Assembly: GCF_003864255.1 (NCBI RefSeq)
Contig: NZ_QWEZ01000001.1
Span: 992,001-1,056,000, forward strand
Direction: 5' to 3'
DNA from: Aestuariirhabdus litorea
GTDB lineage: Bacteria > Pseudomonadota > Gammaproteobacteria > Pseudomonadales > Aestuariirhabdaceae
DNA: 64,000 nucleotides
In this document: positions 24,542-35,793 of the stretch, in pieces
Position numbering within the stretch: the first letter of the stretch is position 1
Layout of the letters: each line of letters opens with the position of its first letter
Notes under the pieces: generated by a model
What the model saw: the letters and a program-made list of their open reading frames with translations, nothing else
The model's database searches: none
Told to the model about the DNA's origin: nothing
Made by a program: the position numbers and the translations under genes

Positions 24542-26680
24542 ATGAGTGCAATTCGATTTGAAAAAGATGCCGACAACATCGTCACCCTGGTGCTCGACAA
24601 CCCGGGCCAGTCGGCCAATACCATGAACGCCGATTTCCGCGCCGCCTTCGAGGAGGTCGTGGTGCGGATTGAGGCCGAGCAGGCGGATATCAGCGGCATT
24701 GTGCTGACCAGCGCCAAGAGTACTTTTTTTGCCGGCGGTGACCTCAATGAGTTGATCTCGGTGGCGGAGGCGGCCCCTTTCTATGAGATGGTAAACCGCC
24801 TCAAGGCGGGTATGCGTCGGCTTGAAACCCTCGGTAAGCCGATGGTGGCGGCGATTAATGGCGCTGCACTGGGTGGCGGCTGGGAGCTGGCCCTGGCCTG
24901 TCACCACCGCATCTGTCTTGACAGCCCCAAGGTGAGCATCGGACTGCCGGAGGTCACCCTGGGACTGCTGCCCGGTGGCGGGGGGGTGGTGCGGATGGTC
25001 CGTCTATTGGGATTGGAGAAGGCGCTGCCCTACCTGATGGAGGGCAAGCAGGTTAAACCCGAGGCAGCACTTAAGGCGGGCCTGGTGCACGAGCTGGTTG
25101 CTTCCCCGGAGGAGCTGGTCAGCCGCGCGAAGGAGTGGGTCAAGGCCAACCCTAAGGCGCAGCAGCCCTGGGATGAGAAGGGCTATCGCCTGCCGGGGGG
25201 CACTCCCTCTTCCCCCCATGTGTTCCAGATGCTCTCCATCGCACCCTCCATGCTGCGGCAGAAAACCAAGGGTTGTTTCCCTGCTCCGGAGAAGATCCTG
25301 GCGGCGGCGGTTGAGGGGGCCCAGGTCGATTTCGATAACGCCTGCCTCATCGAGAGCCGCTACTTCACCGAGCTGGTGATGTCGCCGGTGGCCAAGAACA
25401 TGATCAATACCTTCTGGTTCCAGCTTAATCATATCAAGGCCGGTGGTTCCCGCCCGGACGGCTTTGCGCCCAGCCAGACCCACAAGGTGGGGGTGATCGG
25501 AGCTGGCATGATGGGAGCCGGCATCGCCTACCAATGCGCCATCAGCGGTATCGATGTGGTCCTCAAGGATGTCGCCCTTGAGAGCGCCACCAAGGGCAAG
25601 AGCTATAGCGAAGGGTTGCTGGCCAAGCGGGTTGCCCGCGGCAGCATGACCCAGCAGAAGATGGATGAGGTGCTGGCGCGTATCCAGGCCACCGACAACA
25701 GTGGTGACTTTGCCGGTTGCGACCTTATTATCGAAGCGGTGTTCGAGGATCGAGCACTCAAGGCACAAGTGACCCGTGAGGCAGAGTCGATCTGTAACCC
25801 CGATGCCCTGATCGCTTCCAACACCTCGACCCTGCCGATCACCGGCCTCGCCGAGGCGGTGCCGGACCCCAGCCGCTTTATCGGTCTGCACTTCTTCTCG
25901 CCGGTGGACAAGATGCCGCTGGTGGAGATCATCTGTGGAGAAAAGACCTCCGACGAAGTGCTGGCCAAGGCCTTCGACTTTGTACTGCAGATTCGCAAAA
26001 CCCCTATCGTGGTGAATGATAGCCGAGGATTTTTCACTTCTCGCGTATTCGGTACCTTCACTAACGAAGGGATTGCCATGCTGGGGGAGGGGGTCGAACC
26101 CGCCCTGATCGAGAAGGAAGCGGTCAAGGCGGGTATGCCGGTTGGGCCGTTGGCGATCTCCGACGAGGTCAGCATGAGCCTGATGAAGCATATCCGTGCA
26201 CAGACTGAGTCCGACCTGGCCGCCGAGGGCAAAGTTATGCCCGCTCACCCTGCTATCGCAGTGATCGACACCATGGTCGATCAGCTCAAACGTCCCGGTC
26301 GGGCGGCGGGCGCAGGCTTTTATGACTACCCCGAGGGCGGTAAAAAACGGCTGTGGAGTGGTTTAAAGGAGCAGTTCGTCCGTAGTGAGCAGCAGATCAG
26401 TCGGCAGGATGTGCGTGATCGCCTGCTCTTTATCCAGGCGATCGAAACGGTTCGTTGCCTGGAGGAGAAGGTGCTGCGTTCGGTGCCCGATGCCAACATC
26501 GGCAGCATCTTCGGCATCGGCTTTGCGGCCTGGAGCGGTGGTGCACTGCAGTTCATCAACCAGTATGGGCTGGCCTCCTTTGTCGATCGGGCGCGCTACC
26601 TGAGCGAGCAGTACGGGGAGCGCTTTGAACCGCCGGCACTCCTCCAGGAGATGGCAGCCAGCGGCCATCGATTCGAGTAG
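24542..26680 (+). CDS. Multifunctional enoyl-CoA hydratase / 3-hydroxyacyl-CoA dehydrogenase
   Basis: A 712-residue FadB/FadJ-type alpha subunit of a beta-oxidation complex. In the N-terminal hydratase domain the two catalytic glutamates are E115 (GGGWELALAC) and E137 (IGLPEVTLGLLPGGGG). The NAD-binding motif VGVIGAGMMGAGIAYQ opens the dehydrogenase domain at about residue 316, followed by ASNTSTLPITGLA, GLHFFSPVDKMPLVE and VVNDSRGFFTSRV. Its partner thiolase is encoded just upstream. The length and sequence order are closer to FadJ-like than to the longest FadB forms, so I give no symbol. A strong stem follows the stop. Confidence 0.93.
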   Translation: MSAIRFEKDADNIVTLVLDNPGQSANTMNADFRAAFEEVVVRIEAEQADISGIVLTSAKSTFFAGGDLNELISVAEAAPFYEMVNRLKAGMRRLETLGKPMVAAINGAALGGGWELALACHHRICLDSPKVSIGLPEVTLGLLPGGGGVVRMVRLLGLEKALPYLMEGKQVKPEAALKAGLVHELVASPEELVSRAKEWVKANPKAQQPWDEKGYRLPGGTPSSPHVFQMLSIAPSMLRQKTKGCFPAPEKILAAAVEGAQVDFDNACLIESRYFTELVMSPVAKNMINTFWFQLNHIKAGGSRPDGFAPSQTHKVGVIGAGMMGAGIAYQCAISGIDVVLKDVALESATKGKSYSEGLLAKRVARGSMTQQKMDEVLARIQATDNSGDFAGCDLIIEAVFEDRALKAQVTREAESICNPDALIASNTSTLPITGLAEAVPDPSRFIGLHFFSPVDKMPLVEIICGEKTSDEVLAKAFDFVLQIRKTPIVVNDSRGFFTSRVFGTFTNEGIAMLGEGVEPALIEKEAVKAGMPVGPLAISDEVSMSLMKHIRAQTESDLAAEGKVMPAHPAIAVIDTMVDQLKRPGRAAGAGFYDYPEGGKKRLWSGLKEQFVRSEQQISRQDVRDRLLFIQAIETVRCLEEKVLRSVPDANIGSIFGIGFAAWSGGALQFINQYGLASFVDRARYLSEQYGERFEPPALLQEMAASGHRFE

Positions 26681-26683
26681 GGC

Positions 26684-28894
26684 TTACTCCCCCCGGGAGT
26701 TTCCCGGGGGGAGCATGCGCCCACTCTCCGGTTGCTGGGAGGGGGTGTCGCCCAACAGCGATTGCCACAGGGACCATCGGGGCGGCCGGGTTGCCCCGGT
26801 TTCCCCCTTGATCCAGTAGTTGAAAAACCGGTCGAGTGTGCCATCCACGGTACGCAGTTCCAGCCAGCTACGTACATAGAGCTCAAATGCCATATCGTTC
26901 CGTGCCAGGGGGAAGGCGAGGGGGACGAACAGCCGCTCCGGCTGCGGCAGGCTGATGCTGTAGTCCGGGTTGATCATGCCCCAGCCCGCAGCGGCCGTTA
27001 CCCCAAACAGCAGGGCATCGTACTTGGCCATCTCCTCGCTGTCACGAAAGAACATGCGGGGGGTGGATATCTCCCAGAGCGTGGCTGTGGGCAGGATTTT
27101 TTCGAGATCAACGGCATCGGTGAAACCATCGGGTATACCGATCACCAGGCTCTCCTTTTCTCGTAGCTCACCCCAACTGCGGAATTCCCGACGCCTCTCG
27201 TAGGGTACCATAAGGGACATCAGCTCCAGGGTATAGGCCGGGGACAGGGTAAAGCGCTTGAGGTGGTTGGGGCTGGAGGCGACCCCGGAGGCGATATCCA
27301 GGTAGCCATTATTCAATAAGTGCTCGACCTCATTGCGATAGATATTCACAAACTCAATCTCTACCCCGAGATCGCGGGCCATCTGTTGGAAAATTTCGAT
27401 GTCGTAGCCGACCAGATCGCCGTTCACATTATGGAAGGCATAGGGTAGCCAGTCCCGGTAGTAACCCACCCGCAGAAATCCACGCTCGCGGATTCGCTTG
27501 AGGACGGGCTGGGTGGAGATGCGAGGGGCGTTCAGCACGGTGTCGGGCACTGAGCGGACCACCTGGTGGGGGACGGGGGGGGCCATCAGCTTACGTTCGA
27601 TAAACAGCTGGTAGCCGTTGTATTGGTAGTCGATAGAGGAGAAGGTGGCGTAGAGCAGGCCGATCAGGGCTGCCATTAAGGCGGCGGTAAACAGAAAGGC
27701 GTAGCTCACCCGGCGCCAGCTGACCCGCAGCATACGGGTAGCGCCGGCACCTACAATCAGGGCCATTCCAACGATAAACATCACCCCCACCAGCGCCGCG
27801 AAACGGTTGAAGAGAATCTGGTCGGTCAGCAGATAGAGTTTGAAGGTGTCCGGGTTGATATGGAATTGCTGCAGTAGCTCGGGGATGGAGAGGATCATGG
27901 GGCTGAAGAAGCTGCTGATCCCCAGCAGAGCCAGCGTCGGGTAGTCGGCCAGAGCCAGGTCCTTGCCGCTGAACCAGCCGGCAAAGATCACGAAGATATA
28001 GCCCAGCATCTTGCCGGCCGTGGGCAGACTGTAGCTGATGGGGACGATCACATCGATGATCGACAGTCGTCGCTTGCGTGCGGTGGCATGCTGCCTGGCC
28101 AGCTGCTGGGTGCGGTAGCTGATCATCGGCAGCACCACAAACAGGTTACCGGTCGCAAAGGCAGTGACCAGGGCATCCCGGCTGCAGGCCATGACCTCGG
28201 TGTAGCGGAAGGGGGTCAGGTTTTTGATCAGGTGGGGAAAGGCCCAGAACACCAGGAACAGCGACATTACCGACAGCAAAGTGACAAACACATAGATGCC
28301 CTTGAGCTCCTCCAGGTTGAGACTGCCTGCGGCGGCGGCGGTGATGGCAAACACCCCGTAGGGGGTGAACCGAACCACCAGCACCGACAGGCTACTGATC
28401 AGGTCACGGGCCAGTTCGAGACCCTCGAGGATGCGTTTCTTGTTATCCATGCCGATGATGGCGATCCCCATAGCGACACTGAACAGCACCACCGCCGGCA
28501 CCGACTGCTGGGTAAGGGACTGGAAGGGGTTGGCGGGGATGAAACTATCCAGCGCCAGGGTTGTGGTGTCGGGCTCCAGCCAGGAGAGGCTGAAGAAGCT
28601 GGCACTGACCCGGGTGGGCAGGGCGAAGCCCGCCTGCAGCAGCAGTACGATGGTGGTAGCCCACATCAGCAGCAATGCAAGGCCACCGTATTTGGCGATG
28701 GGCAGTATCTCATGGCGTTTAAGGGAGCCGACCCCGAACATCACCGAAGTGAGGATGTAGGGCAATACCGTCATCTGCAGCAGCATCAGGAAGATCTTGC
28801 CGACCCACTCCAACGGAGCGGTCAGCTCACCCAGTAACAGGCCGCAGGCGATACCCGCAAGCAGCCCCAGCAATACTTTGGTTGCCAGACTCAT
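26684..28894 (-). CDS. DAACS-type transporter fused to a solute-binding domain
   Basis: About 736 residues in two parts. Residues about 1-430 have the hydrophobic pattern of the cation:dicarboxylate/glutamate symporter family (LLGELTAPLEWVGKIFLMLL, PFQSLTQQSVPAVVLFSVAMG, VRFTPYGVFAI). One more membrane helix follows, then residues about 490-710 form a type 3 extracellular solute-binding domain (FLRVGYYRDWLPYAFHN, LVGYDIEIFQQMARDLG, YLDIASGVASSP). The usual NMDGT and serine-rich SSSGT motifs of the symporter core are replaced (YSLPTAGKM, AFATGNLF). Transport may therefore be altered or lost. I chose the ATG before SLATKVLLGLL; the frame extends upstream without a membrane feature. Confidence 0.85.
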   Translation of the reverse strand: MSLATKVLLGLLAGIACGLLLGELTAPLEWVGKIFLMLLQMTVLPYILTSVMFGVGSLKRHEILPIAKYGGLALLLMWATTIVLLLQAGFALPTRVSASFFSLSWLEPDTTTLALDSFIPANPFQSLTQQSVPAVVLFSVAMGIAIIGMDNKKRILEGLELARDLISSLSVLVVRFTPYGVFAITAAAAGSLNLEELKGIYVFVTLLSVMSLFLVFWAFPHLIKNLTPFRYTEVMACSRDALVTAFATGNLFVVLPMISYRTQQLARQHATARKRRLSIIDVIVPISYSLPTAGKMLGYIFVIFAGWFSGKDLALADYPTLALLGISSFFSPMILSIPELLQQFHINPDTFKLYLLTDQILFNRFAALVGVMFIVGMALIVGAGATRMLRVSWRRVSYAFLFTAALMAALIGLLYATFSSIDYQYNGYQLFIERKLMAPPVPHQVVRSVPDTVLNAPRISTQPVLKRIRERGFLRVGYYRDWLPYAFHNVNGDLVGYDIEIFQQMARDLGVEIEFVNIYRNEVEHLLNNGYLDIASGVASSPNHLKRFTLSPAYTLELMSLMVPYERRREFRSWGELREKESLVIGIPDGFTDAVDLEKILPTATLWEISTPRMFFRDSEEMAKYDALLFGVTAAAGWGMINPDYSISLPQPERLFVPLAFPLARNDMAFELYVRSWLELRTVDGTLDRFFNYWIKGETGATRPPRWSLWQSLLGDTPSQQPESGRMLPPGNSRGE
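26687..26713. terminator. Perfect 12-bp stem at the end of the beta-oxidation operon
   Basis: CTCCCCCCGGGA and TCCCGGGGGGAG are perfect complements with a 3-nt loop, seven bases after the stop of the hydratase/dehydrogenase gene. One arm encodes the last residues of the convergent transporter gene. There is no T-tract. Confidence 0.55.
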
Positions 28895-29313
28895 GATGTG
28901 TAGTGGCCTCACCCGGTGAGCACCGCGAAGGGGCGCCCGTTGTGTAGGAAGTTTGAGTATAGAGAGCGGCCAGAGGCGCAATCAGCGACTGTCAGTGTCT
29001 TTAACAGTAGCGCAGTCTGATCCCCATGGCTTCCTCTAATCGATTGATCAATAAAGAATAATTATAAAAGGCATTGGGTTTGCAGTGGTGCGGCACAGGT
29101 CTTGTTCTGCCGGTTTTTCTATAGGGGCGGCCCGTTTTATGAAGGCTTAGTGAAGGGATTCTCATTGGCCGACCCCTTTTTTCCTGTACAGCCTTGATGC
29201 TTTTTGCCAATTCAGGGGCCGCTCTCGGCCATTGCATCGTCCCGCCGGCTGGCGGACACTCAGGTGAACCATCGCGCCATGCGCCCTTTTCCTGACCTCC
29301 TGGTGAGCCCCTT
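28895..29313. other. 419-bp intergenic region
   Basis: Upstream region of the fused transporter (minus) and the transglutaminase-like gene (plus). A frame of about 78 codons on the minus strand has no ribosome site and no protein-like composition, so I reject it. The central part (29040-29070) is AT-rich, with TATAAT on the minus strand at 29061-29066, a possible -10 for the transporter without a good -35. I see nothing else. Confidence 0.4.
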
Positions 29314-31227: not shown

Positions 31228-31302
31228 ACCGGCGGGATTTGACCTGTCTACGGCTTCATGGTTGAGACTGCCCTCAAACCCATCAACAACAGGAGAACAC
31301 CC

Positions 31303-31530
31303 ATGAATCAGCCCATGAACCCACCCCAGGGGGGGATCAGCAAGGAGCAGTGGGTAGAGCTGTTTGAGGCCACGGGCCTGAACGAGGCGACTATGCAACG
31401 CTGGCACCAGCTGTTTGAAGCGCGCTACCCCGAGGGGCATGCCAGCTTTTTAACCTGGCTGGGGGAGAGTGCGCAGGAGGTGGAACGGATTCGCCGCTGG
31501 TCCCGTGAGTCGGCAACGGGTCAGGAGTAG
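31303..31530 (+). CDS. Stand-alone copy of the MerR C-terminal domain
   Basis: A 75-residue protein. The ATG at 31303 has an AGGAG site; an upstream ATG in frame lacks one. Aligned by hand, its KEQWVELFEATGLNEATMQRW...IRRWSRES region matches the C-terminal domain of the MerR regulator encoded 2 bp downstream at about 29 of 55 positions, including RWH, HxxFL, LG and IRRWSRE. It has no DNA-binding helix-turn-helix. It is probably a paralogous effector or dimerisation domain produced from the same mRNA as the regulator. The function is inferred only from this similarity. Confidence 0.8.
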   Translation: MNQPMNPPQGGISKEQWVELFEATGLNEATMQRWHQLFEARYPEGHASFLTWLGESAQEVERIRRWSRESATGQE

Positions 31531-31532
31531 GG

Positions 31533-32078
31533 ATGCCGGACTCCGCTATTACCATCGGTGAGATGAGCCGCCGGTTTGGACTTTCGCGCAGCGCATTGCT
31601 CTATTACGACCGTATCGGCCTGCTTTCCCCCTCGCTTCGCTCTGCCGCCAACTACCGTCTATATGGGTCTGGGGATCAGCGCCGTATGGCGTCGATCCAG
31701 CGCTACCGGGAGGCGGGGATCGCTTTGGACCGGATTGCCGCGCTGCTCGATGGCGACGGGGGAGAGATGCAGGCGCTGCTCGAGCAGCGCCTGCAGACCA
31801 TTAATCGGGAGATCCAGGCGCTACGGGACCAGCAACGGCTGTTGGTGAGCCTGTTGCAGGATCGCTCTAGGTTGCAGGAGTGCCGCACCCTCGACAAACA
31901 GGGCTGGGTCAGGCTACTGGCCGCGGCGGGGATGAGTGAGGCCGATATGCGCCGCTGGCACGTTGAGTTCGAGCGCCAGGCGACGGAGGCCCACGAGGAT
32001 TTTCTGCAGGGGTTGGGCATCGAGACGCAGGAGATCGGGCAGATTCGCCGGTGGTCCCGCGAGGCCACCGACGAATAA
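31533..32078 (+). CDS. MerR family transcriptional regulator
   Basis: A 181-residue activator/repressor of the MerR family. The N-terminal winged helix-turn-helix is TIGEMSRRFGLSRSALLYYDRIGLL and then YRLYGSGDQRRMASIQRYREAG. A dimerisation coiled coil follows (QALLEQRLQTINREIQALRDQQ), and a C-terminal domain from about residue 125 (WVRLLAAAGMSEADMRRW) is homologous to the small protein encoded just upstream. There are no metal-binding cysteine pairs, so a metal sensor of the CueR/ZntR type is unlikely. The inducer is unknown. The 2-bp spacing implies tight cotranslation with the upstream gene. Confidence 0.9.
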   Translation: MPDSAITIGEMSRRFGLSRSALLYYDRIGLLSPSLRSAANYRLYGSGDQRRMASIQRYREAGIALDRIAALLDGDGGEMQALLEQRLQTINREIQALRDQQRLLVSLLQDRSRLQECRTLDKQGWVRLLAAAGMSEADMRRWHVEFERQATEAHEDFLQGLGIETQEIGQIRRWSREATDE

Positions 32079-33948: not shown

Positions 33949-35793
33949 GTGAGCTGGCAGATAGCGGCGGCGGTGGCGCCAGGGCTGCCGCTGGGTGCGG
34001 GCGTACGCACTGAGCTGGAGGCGGCAGTCAATGCCTCGGGTACGAACTTGTGTGCGGTCCTGGAAGGATTTTTTGGATGCATAGCCTTGAGTTGGAGTCG
34101 CTGGAGAGCGGAGCCATTTGCCCGCCGCGATCGCCTGACCCTGGTGCTGATCGGGGATTGCTATGGCGAACAGGCGCTGACCGCCGACCAGCTATTGGAG
34201 CGTTATCTTATACAGGGCTCCGGGGCGTTGGAGGGATTGAATGGCCGTTATATGGTGTGGGTACTGGATGAACAGCACCAGCGGCTCGAGTTGATCGGTG
34301 ACCCGCTTGGGTTGCGTAAACTCTATGTCACCGATCTAAAGGATTGCCGGCTGTTTTGCAGCCATCTGAGCGCCCTGCGCCATGTGAGGGCTTTTCATCC
34401 CCGGCTCGATCCCTACGGGGCGGCCCAGCTATTGATCACCAGCCATTTGTGTGACGAACACAGCCTGCTGGAGGGCGTACGCCTTATTGCCCCGGCAGCC
34501 CATCTGAGTTGGGGGCCCGAGGGCTATACCCAGCGCTGCTACTGGGCACCCTCCATCGACCCCACCCGTGGTGACCTGGAGGGGGGGGCTGAGGCATTAC
34601 AGCCACTGCTGGAACACGCGCTACAGCGTCAGGTCGGGGAGAGTGACGAGCTGACACTGCCCCTTTCCGGTGGGTTGGATTCCCGTCTGCTGGCCGGGCT
34701 GTTGCCGGCGGCGCTGCGACCCATGACCCATAGTTTCAGTTACGGCCACGCCCACAGTTACGATCGGCGCATCGGCCGACGGGTGGCGAAAACGCTGGGG
34801 ATTCGACACCAGCGGCTGGACCTGCCCGCGCGGCTTTACCAGCGTTATCAGGCGCAGGCATTAACCCTCGCTGATGGCGAAATCTCTATTGAGGCTTTCC
34901 CCCTGTTCCGCCTGCTGGAGGCGGGGGTTGAAGGAAGTACCCTGGTCAGTGGTTATGCGGGTGACTGGATCTCCTCCAAGAAACGACTTCACCCGCAGGA
35001 GGGCCGTGACCGCTCCCTGCAGTACCTGTGGCAAAAGCTTTACGTCAGAAAGGGGTTCAGCGCCCGGGATCTCGAGGCGGTGGTGGTTCACCCGCAGGTG
35101 CGAGAGGGTTATGAGCGCTTGCAACAGACCATGCTGGAGGCCTTTGACAGTGCCTGTGCCGACACCTTTGCCGACAAGGCGCAGCTGCTCGAGTTCTGGC
35201 ACCGACAGCGGCGCTACGTCAGTTACCAGTTAAATGTGTTGGAAACTCGTTTTCGTGTCTGTGCTCCCCTGTGTGATTATGAGCTGGTGCGCAACTGGCT
35301 CAATATGCCCGCCCATTGGAAGGAGCAGCAACGGGCGTACCGCTCCCTGATCGAGCGTATCTCCCCAACCCTCGCGGCCCTGCCAGTGGCGGGGAGTAGC
35401 CGGCTGCAACCACTGCAGGCCGGCTCGGGTGGGGCACGGCTGGACCTGATCGGTGGCCTGCGCCAGCGGGTGCTCCAAAGCAATCTCTCCGAGGGGGCAC
35501 GTTGGCGCCTGAACCTTCTGCTCAGGGGGGGGGGGCGCGGGCTGGTGGCGGCCAGCGGAGGCTGGCTGGGACCGCACAACCGGGGTCTGCTGGTGCACCA
35601 TGACGAGGACATTCGCCAGGACACCGAGTGGTTTTTCAAGCGCCTGATGGACCCGCAAATGGCTGAGGGGATCTACAATCTGGATGCCCTGCGGCGTATG
35701 TGGGAGGAGCACCTGAGCGGCCGGCAGGACCACTCGGTCCGTTTCAACAACCTTATTGTACTCTCCGCTTTTCGTCGGTTTTGGTCGCTGTAA
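33949..35793 (+). CDS. Asparagine-synthetase-like amidotransferase lacking the N-terminal Cys
   Basis: A 614-residue AsnB-fold protein. The ATP-pyrophosphatase loop is LPLSGGLDSRLLAGLLP near residue 240, followed by HSFSYGHAHSYDRRIG and VSGYAGDWIS. The N-terminal ~190 residues still resemble a class II glutamine amidotransferase (LNGRYMVWVLDEQHQRLELIGD), but the chain begins VSWQIAAAVA rather than MCGI, so the Cys2 nucleophile is missing. A stop codon four codons upstream (33937) limits any extension, and GAGG lies seven bases before the GTG. It probably uses ammonia or another nucleophile, or performs a different ATP-dependent amidation. It holds a run of ten G at 35525-35534. A possible operator and acyl-CoA genes follow. 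Confidence 0.85.
   Translation: MSWQIAAAVAPGLPLGAGVRTELEAAVNASGTNLCAVLEGFFGCIALSWSRWRAEPFARRDRLTLVLIGDCYGEQALTADQLLERYLIQGSGALEGLNGRYMVWVLDEQHQRLELIGDPLGLRKLYVTDLKDCRLFCSHLSALRHVRAFHPRLDPYGAAQLLITSHLCDEHSLLEGVRLIAPAAHLSWGPEGYTQRCYWAPSIDPTRGDLEGGAEALQPLLEHALQRQVGESDELTLPLSGGLDSRLLAGLLPAALRPMTHSFSYGHAHSYDRRIGRRVAKTLGIRHQRLDLPARLYQRYQAQALTLADGEISIEAFPLFRLLEAGVEGSTLVSGYAGDWISSKKRLHPQEGRDRSLQYLWQKLYVRKGFSARDLEAVVVHPQVREGYERLQQTMLEAFDSACADTFADKAQLLEFWHRQRRYVSYQLNVLETRFRVCAPLCDYELVRNWLNMPAHWKEQQRAYRSLIERISPTLAALPVAGSSRLQPLQAGSGGARLDLIGGLRQRVLQSNLSEGARWRLNLLLRGGGRGLVAASGGWLGPHNRGLLVHHDEDIRQDTEWFFKRLMDPQMAEGIYNLDALRRMWEEHLSGRQDHSVRFNNLIVLSAFRRFWSL

Follow-up and report, generated by a model that had tools for sequence, protein, structure and literature searches.

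The fusion gene and its domains

The stretch of DNA analysed here, referred to as the window, comprises 64,000 nucleotides of contig NZ_QWEZ01000001.1 of Aestuariirhabdus litorea. The gene under study lies on its minus strand and encodes a membrane carrier of the DAACS (SLC1) type, joined within one chain to a type 3 solute-binding domain. Its frame of 736 residues is open from an ATG at 28894 to a stop codon at 26684-26686; this ATG is favoured over an upstream TTG at 28981 because several relatives likewise start with MSL or MTL at that point. Two Pfam families are present, SDF (sodium:dicarboxylate symporter) at residues 3-328 (E 4.5e-38, 131.7 bits against a cut-off of 27.9) and SBP_bac_3 at residues 474-696 (E 7.2e-16, 58.6 bits against a cut-off of 26.4). 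No other Pfam family was found in the chain at E values up to 1, and no NCBIfam model reached its cut-off with the full protein. An initial annotation, made from the sequence alone, had described a DAACS-like membrane part and a type 3 binding domain in one polypeptide, and both the Pfam domains and confident fold matches agree with it. Apart from the fusion gene, the organism's own genome (3.66 Mb on 7 contigs) yielded no SDF match at E <= 0.001, and no canonical DAACS carrier was found. The features of the gene, with transmembrane helices abbreviated as TM, are as follows.

26684..28894, minus strand: whole coding sequence, 736 residues and stop (open frame, Pfam)
27734..28894, minus strand: SLC1/DAACS-type carrier fold, residues 1-387 (Pfam SDF, VIA-align)
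28127..28162, minus strand: hairpin-1 tip AFATGNLFVVLP, residues 245-256, at the place of the serine-rich tip of GltPh (model, alignment, conservation)
28007..28042, minus strand: TM7 break PISYSLPTAGKM, residues 285-296, with PTAGK in place of NMDGT (model, alignment)
27866..27946, minus strand: hairpin 2, residues 317-343 (model, profile alignment)
27740..27847, minus strand: TM8, residues 350-385 (model, alignment)
27635..27718, minus strand: additional ninth transmembrane helix, residues 393-420 (model, hydrophobicity and charge test)
27509..27634, minus strand: predicted periplasmic linker, residues 421-462 (model; the most variable region compared)
26807..27508, minus strand: type 3 solute-binding domain, residues 463-696 (Pfam, model, VIA-align)
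26687..26806, minus strand: C-terminal tail, residues 697-736 (model, family alignment)

The carrier fold

An AlphaFold2 model built with 81 sequences has a mean predicted local distance difference test score (pLDDT) of 86.9 and a predicted template modelling score of 0.82. It contains hairpin 1 (helices 231-248 and 251-269), a TM7 that is broken between residues 274-289 and 293-309, hairpin 2 (317-328 and 333-343) and TM8 (350-385), followed by the additional helix (393-420) and then the binding domain. Superposition of model residues 1-387 on SLC1/GltPh-type structures with VIA-align gave Z scores of 32.6-40.7, the Foldseek and VIA-align comparisons speaking for the structures and families listed. 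These include the transporter ASCT2 (8qrs), with Z 40.7 and a root-mean-square deviation (rmsd) of 2.1 over 365 aligned residues, an uncoupled ancestral aspartate transporter (9bgy), with Z 40.4 and an rmsd of 2.8 over 370, and GltPh (6uwl), with Z 37.8 and an rmsd of 2.8 over 360. The membrane half is an SLC1-type carrier with both hairpins and a broken TM7. Hairpin 2 is six residues shorter than in the canonical profile and has no GVPGAG.

Ion and substrate positions

A joint MAFFT alignment was made of 104 family sequences and 29 canonical carriers from the same order. The family set consists of the window protein, 80 loci from named genomes and 23 loci from other genome searches; L001 (the window itself), the fragments L019 and L020 and later matches to the carrier half alone were left out. 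At least two pairs of loci in the two sets are apparently the same records (L003/L027 and L005/L058), and 78 of the 104 sequences remain below 80% identity. For the canonical controls an SDF search supplied its first 30 loci, which are hence high scorers; L127 was dropped from these by a length limit. Positions N310, T314, D394, R397, T398, N401 and D405 (GltPh numbering) are present in all 29 controls and D312 in 26 of them, with Asn in the other three; the control frames had been chosen by an NMDGT-like pattern (30/30), so that the counts for N310-T314 are partly true by construction and those for TM8 are not.

The family differs from these controls at nearly every such position. The initial annotation had placed the segments AFATGNLF and YSLPTAGKM where glutamate symporters have their serine-rich hairpin motif and NMDGT. 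The alignment puts them there, AFATGNLF (residues 245-252) on the serine-rich hairpin-1 tip and YSLPTAGKM at residues 288-296, with P291-T-A-G-K295 on N-M-D-G-T. The motifs are indeed altered in the window gene; the alteration is not particular to this gene, being common to the whole family. The position of N310 is occupied by Pro in 103 of the 104 sequences and by Asn in none, no sequence has an acid at 312, Gly is found at 313 in 99, and position 314 is Lys in 85, Thr in 15, Arg in three and Ala in one, so that NMDGT has become PxxGK in most members. In hairpin 1, canonical carriers have Ser, Ser and a small residue, whereas the family mostly has TG[S/N] and then two bulky hydrophobic residues; the first of these serines is kept in 50/104. 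An acid at 405, which is Asp in 29/29 controls, occurs in none of the 104.

In the window protein the substrate-ligand positions read N250-L251-F252 (hairpin 1), K295 (T314), N363 (D394), A366 (R397) and G370 (N401). The aligned D394, R397, N401 and D405 of TM8 are not kept, and the family has mostly small residues at the positions of 397, 398 and 401; two residues ahead of position 397, R364 is Arg in 92/104. The register of TM8 is supported as far as 398 by hhalign, MAFFT and the end points of the structural matches, which agree; beyond it hhalign opens a gap, and the assignments of N401 and D405 are those of MAFFT alone. The absence of an acid at 405 is independent of this register, because no position from 364 to 392 carries an acid in more than four of the 104 sequences.

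A Na+ signature ([S/T] at 92-93, N310, [M/S]311, [D/E]312 and [D/E]405) and an H+ signature (a hydrophobic residue at 92, L311 and N405) are given in PMC12668577. Measured against the Na+ signature as given there, the window protein has M77/W78, P291, T292, A293 and I374, and across the family N310 and the acids at 312 and 405 are found in 0/104. As to the H+ signature of the same text, M77 suits the hydrophobic position 92 and T292 and I374 do not fit; L311 occurs in 1/104 and N405 in 0/104. The substrate-ligand set (serine-rich hairpin-1 tip, T314, D394, R397 and N401) is likewise absent from the window protein, the TM8 part of this statement being less certain. In the 104 sequences examined, the aligned ligands for Na+ and the greater part of those for the substrate have been lost. 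Intact Na+ and substrate sites in a structural alignment had been named beforehand as one of two results that would overturn the initial interpretation, and these sites are not intact.

Some deviations set the window copy apart from its family. Residue 260 is Tyr, where 95/104 have Glu or Asp (the close relatives L002, L003 and L027 also have no acid there), Q263 stands where most have Lys or Arg, and Q342 where most have Asp or Glu.

A ninth helix and the placement of the binding domain

An additional ninth hydrophobic helix was found in 103/104 family members and, within the last 45 residues, in 0/29 canonical carriers. The net charge before this helix is higher than after it in 103 sequences and equal in one. 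The C-terminus of GltPh-type carriers is cytoplasmic; because of this, and of the ninth helix with its charge bias, the binding domain is predicted to lie on the outer (periplasmic) face. A cytoplasmic placement, which would have spoken against a capture domain, is not what the positive-inside rule predicts for these 103 sequences. Near the C-terminus, an RWS motif is found in 61/104 members, and residues 719-736 are modelled with a pLDDT below 50.

The binding domain

Modelled alone, the binding domain has a pLDDT of 88.8 and the two-lobed SBP_bac_3 fold. Its best match by VIA-align is AncCDT-1 (5t0w; Z 25.7, rmsd 2.4, 226 aligned), followed by amino-acid solute-binding proteins (SBPs) at Z 21.6-24.5, among which those for arginine, glutamate and lysine score 23.7-24.5. 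In AncCDT-1 we take the Arg of the TPER motif to be the anchor of the alpha-carboxylate and an Asp to be that of the alpha-amino group. At the position aligned to the former, 43 of the 104 sequences have Arg, 42 have Asn and five have His, H544 of the window protein being one of these His residues; the position aligned to the latter is Asp in 1/104 and Gly (G631) in the window protein. The pair of Arg and Asp occurs together in a single sequence. Arg at this anchor tends to be accompanied by Glu or Gln at residue 633, and Asn by Ala or Pro, so that the family may bind more than one class of ligand. An amino acid or a related small carboxylate is the probable ligand, but the window protein does not have the usual amino-acid anchors.

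Conservation and selection

A sliding scan of 12 residues over residues 1-700, using the 78 sequences below 80% identity, located the most conserved stretches in TM2 (about 34-52, best 0.74 bits), at the hairpin-1 tip (244-255, 0.89) and at 132-143 (0.90). Among regions chosen by hand, the hairpin-1 tip (residues 245-256) has 0.92 bits and the TM7 break 1.31, compared to 2.01 for the whole protein, 2.63 for the ninth helix and 2.90 for the linker. Comparison with the 72% identical homologue L002 gave, for the carrier half, a rate of nonsynonymous substitution (dN) of 0.21 and of synonymous substitution (dS) of 1.55, i.e. a dN/dS of about 0.13, and for the binding domain a dN of 0.17, a dS of 1.76 and a dN/dS of about 0.10; these ratios come from this one pair, with dS near saturation. 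Both halves are under purifying selection, and the substitutions of the family are conserved, not decayed. The conserved hairpin-1 tip and TM7 break, together with the low dN/dS, therefore argue for a rebuilt, working site.

A degenerate carrier was also considered, and was ruled out for the family by the low dN/dS of both halves and the well-conserved hairpin-1 tip.

Occurrence of the fusion

With the window's genome counted in each case, a match was found in 13/194 genomes of the same order at E <= 1e-20 and in 6/398 genomes of the same phylum at E <= 1e-30, and the carrier half was matched in 6/274 genomes of the same class at E <= 1e-40. Among the matches in the order, 18/20 are full length and the other two are fragments at contig starts. 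A scan of named genomes with the single protein as query yielded no relatives; with alignment A1 as query it returned at least 594 stretches, 477 of which encode a relative, and the best 80 of these 477 were kept.

A survey of the same fusion in other genomes had been suggested at the outset, and all 80 kept relatives proved to be the same fusion: the frame is open in 80/80, as single frames of 687-801 residues with a tblastn match running from the carrier through the binding domain (at L093 and L104 the frame runs past the contig end after the binding domain). An assembly or frameshift artefact is ruled out by these open frames. Both Pfam families were found in all ten further members scanned. 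With the carrier half alone as query within the class, six of the seven matches (window included) lie in frames of at least 695 residues, and in the sample examined the carrier half hardly ever occurs without the binding half. The seventh match (G816:C4:53807-54388, L143) is partial, covers only the second half of the carrier in a frame of 512 residues, and may be broken or truncated.

The kept loci belong mainly to Gammaproteobacteria and delta-proteobacterial groups, and smaller numbers (one to five records per label) are assigned to Acidobacteria, Verrucomicrobiia, Gemmatimonadota, Aminicenantes, Bacteroidales, Filomicrobium and Xenococcus/Xenococcaceae; judging by their titles, records outside the Gammaproteobacteria are metagenome-assembled, and their taxon labels need care. 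The nearest named relative among them is from Aestuariirhabdus (L027, 61%). Seven plasmid records contain a match, two of them over at least 80% of the query. The fusion family is old and widely spread. In the joint tree its 104 members form one group with a support of only 0.63, and, as the rooting of this tree is not trusted, monophyly is not claimed. One member bears the RefSeq name 'cation:dicarboxylase symporter family transporter', which could mislead as to the chemistry of the family.

Gene neighbours

In the window the fusion gene apparently stands alone. It converges on a pair encoding a thiolase and a 3-hydroxyacyl-CoA dehydrogenase, the last frame of which ends at 26680, and a transglutaminase-like gene (start 29314) and the fusion gene run away from each other. 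A promoter and terminator scan found no more sites than shuffled sequences did (within one standard deviation).

Neighbours were counted over 79 of 81 loci, as the fusion gene was not located in L038 and L052; many flanks are short, so that a missing neighbour is weak evidence. Across these 79 loci no general operon partner emerged. A RimK-type glutamate ligase gene lies directly downstream in five loci (by Pfam in L075 and L090, by homology in the other three), an arrangement met in some delta-proteobacterial loci; the RimK-family gene of L090 is also above its NCBIfam cut-off. A glutaminase gene is a neighbour in L069, and a gene for an OprP-type porin lies downstream, clearly in L047 and in part in L070. 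Such operon-like neighbours suit uptake or glutamate chemistry and give a hint, limited to the branches concerned, that amino acids or carboxylates are taken up. The downstream frame of L070 (2670-3764) scores both for an OprP-type porin and for a ZnuA-type zinc-binding protein.

A GGDEF-type gene is found within two genes of the fusion in 6/79 loci by motif and in 8/79 by homology, six of the latter eight being Thalassotalea or Thalassomonas. At L028, L029, L030, L051 and L061 (Thalassotalea/Thalassomonas) a divergent dCache-like/GGDEF gene lies 131-397 bases from the fusion gene, as called by Pfam in L028 and L051 and by homology and motif in the others. A shorter GGDEF homologue is found beside L046, and genes for a GGDEF-EAL, a kinase-receiver-cyclase and a GAF/MCP-like protein lie beside L053, L096 and L097, respectively.

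Other arrangements are restricted to related groups. Relatives in Colwellia share a synteny of metG, rcsF and a gene that we take to be trmO. In four loci, three labelled Filomicrobium and one Thiorhodococcus (L082, L083, L093 and L106), a DUF1028-type gene lies upstream and extends a few bases into the start of the fusion frame (Pfam in L082 and L106, homology in L083 and L093), which suggests translational coupling with the fusion gene. Two loci labelled Desulfobacterales (L071 and L098) have a sodium:solute symporter (SSF) gene upstream, in the same orientation and at a distance of 53-60 bases.

Two further observations were made elsewhere in the window. An open reading frame of 90 residues (31258-31530, plus strand) directly precedes a MerR-type regulator gene (31533-32078, plus strand) and by eye resembles the C-terminal part of that regulator, with an MxRWH stretch and a similar end in both, as if the effector domain were also made as a separate protein. 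At 33949-35793 (plus strand) a protein of 614 residues is encoded that is asparagine-synthase-like and has a glutamine-amidotransferase domain (Asn_synthase, GATase_7).

Proposed function and alternatives

We propose, with moderate confidence, that the protein is a single-chain uptake carrier of SLC1 (DAACS) fold that is fed by its own binding domain and has a rebuilt transport site. Transport and ligand binding are deduced from the anatomy, the conservation of the core and the TAXI-GltS precedent (see below), what is known here coming from sequence and models. The binding domain would capture a small solute in the periplasm and pass it on to the transport domain, either of its own protomer or of an adjacent one, assuming a trimer as in GltPh, and the transport domain would then make an elevator movement. 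Since neither the Na+ signature nor the full H+ signature is present, the drive would come by another route, with K295 as a candidate fixed or protonatable charge, or entry would be facilitated and uncoupled. Judging by its position (that of GltPh T314) and its conservation, K295 is a candidate for a built-in charge that replaces Na+. Tentatively, and with clearly less confidence, the family could represent a further class of SBP-dependent secondary transporters based on the SLC1 elevator, with recognition taken over by the binding domain and K295, a lysine embedded in the membrane, taking the place of bound Na+ as a fixed or protonatable charge; if true, a carrier of SLC1 fold would here function in the absence of the known coupling residues.

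Several points weigh against the proposed uptake carrier. Nearly all aligned polar substrate ligands (T314, D394, R397 and N401) are gone, and a translocating site might be expected to retain polar ligands in some form; their loss would fit a receptor equally well. R364 may be R397 in a shifted position or its replacement, and Asn at residue 373 (20/104) is put on N401 by hhalign, the register of TM8 being uncertain. The binding pocket of the window protein has H544 and G631 in place of the Arg and Asp anchors, and these missing anchors, Y260 and Q342 may mean that the window copy is specialised or weakened. Finally, the neighbours are inconsistent, and signalling genes stand beside some members (L053, L096 and L097).

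The initial annotation had left the choice between a carrier with a tethered capture domain and a receptor that uses the carrier fold as a sensor, and of these the tethered capture domain is preferred. As a receptor, the protein would have its elevator position shifted by an outside ligand, and a separate cytoplasmic partner would read this shift. The canonical ion ligands are absent in all 104 sequences, as would suit a sensor, and there are the divergent dCache-like GGDEF genes at the five Thalassotalea/Thalassomonas loci, the shorter homologue at L046 and the signalling proteins beside the three loci just named. We nevertheless regard a receptor as unlikely: no output domain was found above cut-off in the window protein or in ten others scanned, there is no constant signalling partner (the few GGDEF-type neighbours come mostly from one related group), a few other members have uptake-type neighbours (porin, glutaminase), and conservation is high at the hairpin-1 tip and the TM7 break. 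The same conservation would not be needed in a mere anchor, in which an immobile carrier part keeps the binding domain, or an enzyme evolved from that domain, tied to the membrane. Such an enzyme would be cyclohexadienyl dehydratase-like, since the closest solved relative of the domain is AncCDT-1, an amino-acid-binding ancestor on the way to cyclohexadienyl dehydratase, and later members of that lineage also rank high structurally; the Glu that is common in the family at 633, however, aligns one residue before E173 of AncCDT-3, which we take to be the catalytic Glu. An anchor or anchored enzyme thus appears quite improbable. An ordinary DAACS symporter that is coupled to Na+ or H+, has the binding domain as an accessory and a substrate site working as in GltP or DctA, is strongly disfavoured and has the slightest chance of all. 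It would account for the SDF homology and the full fold match, and M77 supplies one of the three H+ items of PMC12668577; against it stand the absence of Asn310 and of acids at 312 and 405 from all 104 sequences, a result that does not depend on the TM8 register, and the near absence of the other two H+ items (1/104 and 0/104), for which the window protein has Thr and Ile.

Comparison with known systems

The family shares with DAACS/SLC1 carriers (GltPh, GltTk, EAAT, ASCT2) the whole carrier fold, including hairpin 1, the broken TM7, hairpin 2 and TM8, with sequence homology from TM1 to TM7 and, in several relatives, through TM8. It differs from them in having neither the Na+ signature, nor the full H+ signature, nor most aligned substrate ligands, and in its shorter hairpin 2, extra TM9 and external binding domain. 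Full-fold similarity also links its binding domain to the amino-acid SBPs of ABC systems (AncCDT-1, ArgBP, GlnH), which differ in that the domain is here joined covalently to a carrier of the secondary type; in the roles that we assume for them, the alpha-amino Asp is present in only 1/104 and the carboxylate Arg in 43/104. In contrast to TRAP and TTT transporters, the membrane and binding parts of which belong to other families, the window chain matches SDF and SBP_bac_3 only (Pfam, E up to 1), and its membrane part is not DctM, TctA or GltS. The common ground would be that all are secondary carriers fed by a binding protein, TRAP being of the elevator type (PMC12344293).

Among the best structural matches of the carrier half is AncInt (9bgy, 9bgz, 9bh0), the transport of which is reported in PMC12668577 to be independent of Na+ and H+; the present family differs in its fusion to a binding domain. 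A precedent for the arrangement is TAXI-GltS, in which a secondary carrier, probably of the elevator type, is linked to an SBP and in some genomes forms one chain with it (PMC12344293). It was proposed there as a new SBP-dependent class, the coupling still to be confirmed according to its authors. The carrier in that system is GltS, the SBP is of the TAXI type and is N-terminal in the fusion, and the fusion is represented by 14 InterPro entries, as against the 80 fusions checked here (the best 80 of 477).

In all 80 kept loci a secondary-type carrier is covalently tied to an SBP, the arrangement that marks an SBP-dependent transporter. Judged by sequence, the family would thus be of SLC1 fold, SBP-dependent by architecture, and by signature not a Na+ or H+ coupled DAACS. 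No paper on an SDF-SBP fusion was found in the open-licence literature, subscription journals lying mostly outside that search; the parts are already known, and the fusion is uncharacterised as far as the open literature shows. According to the 2025 TAXI-GltS paper, TRAP and TTT had been the only secondary carriers known to use a soluble binding protein, and the question is raised there whether an elevator mechanism is required for the use of an SBP, an idea that further classes would test (PMC12344293). With its lost Na+ ligands and conserved replacements, the family is a natural experiment on the life of a carrier without the known coupling sites. Because SLC1 is, in our judgement, the best understood elevator fold, a natural SLC1-SBP fusion that is one chain in nearly every copy met would be a strong test object for the elevator question.

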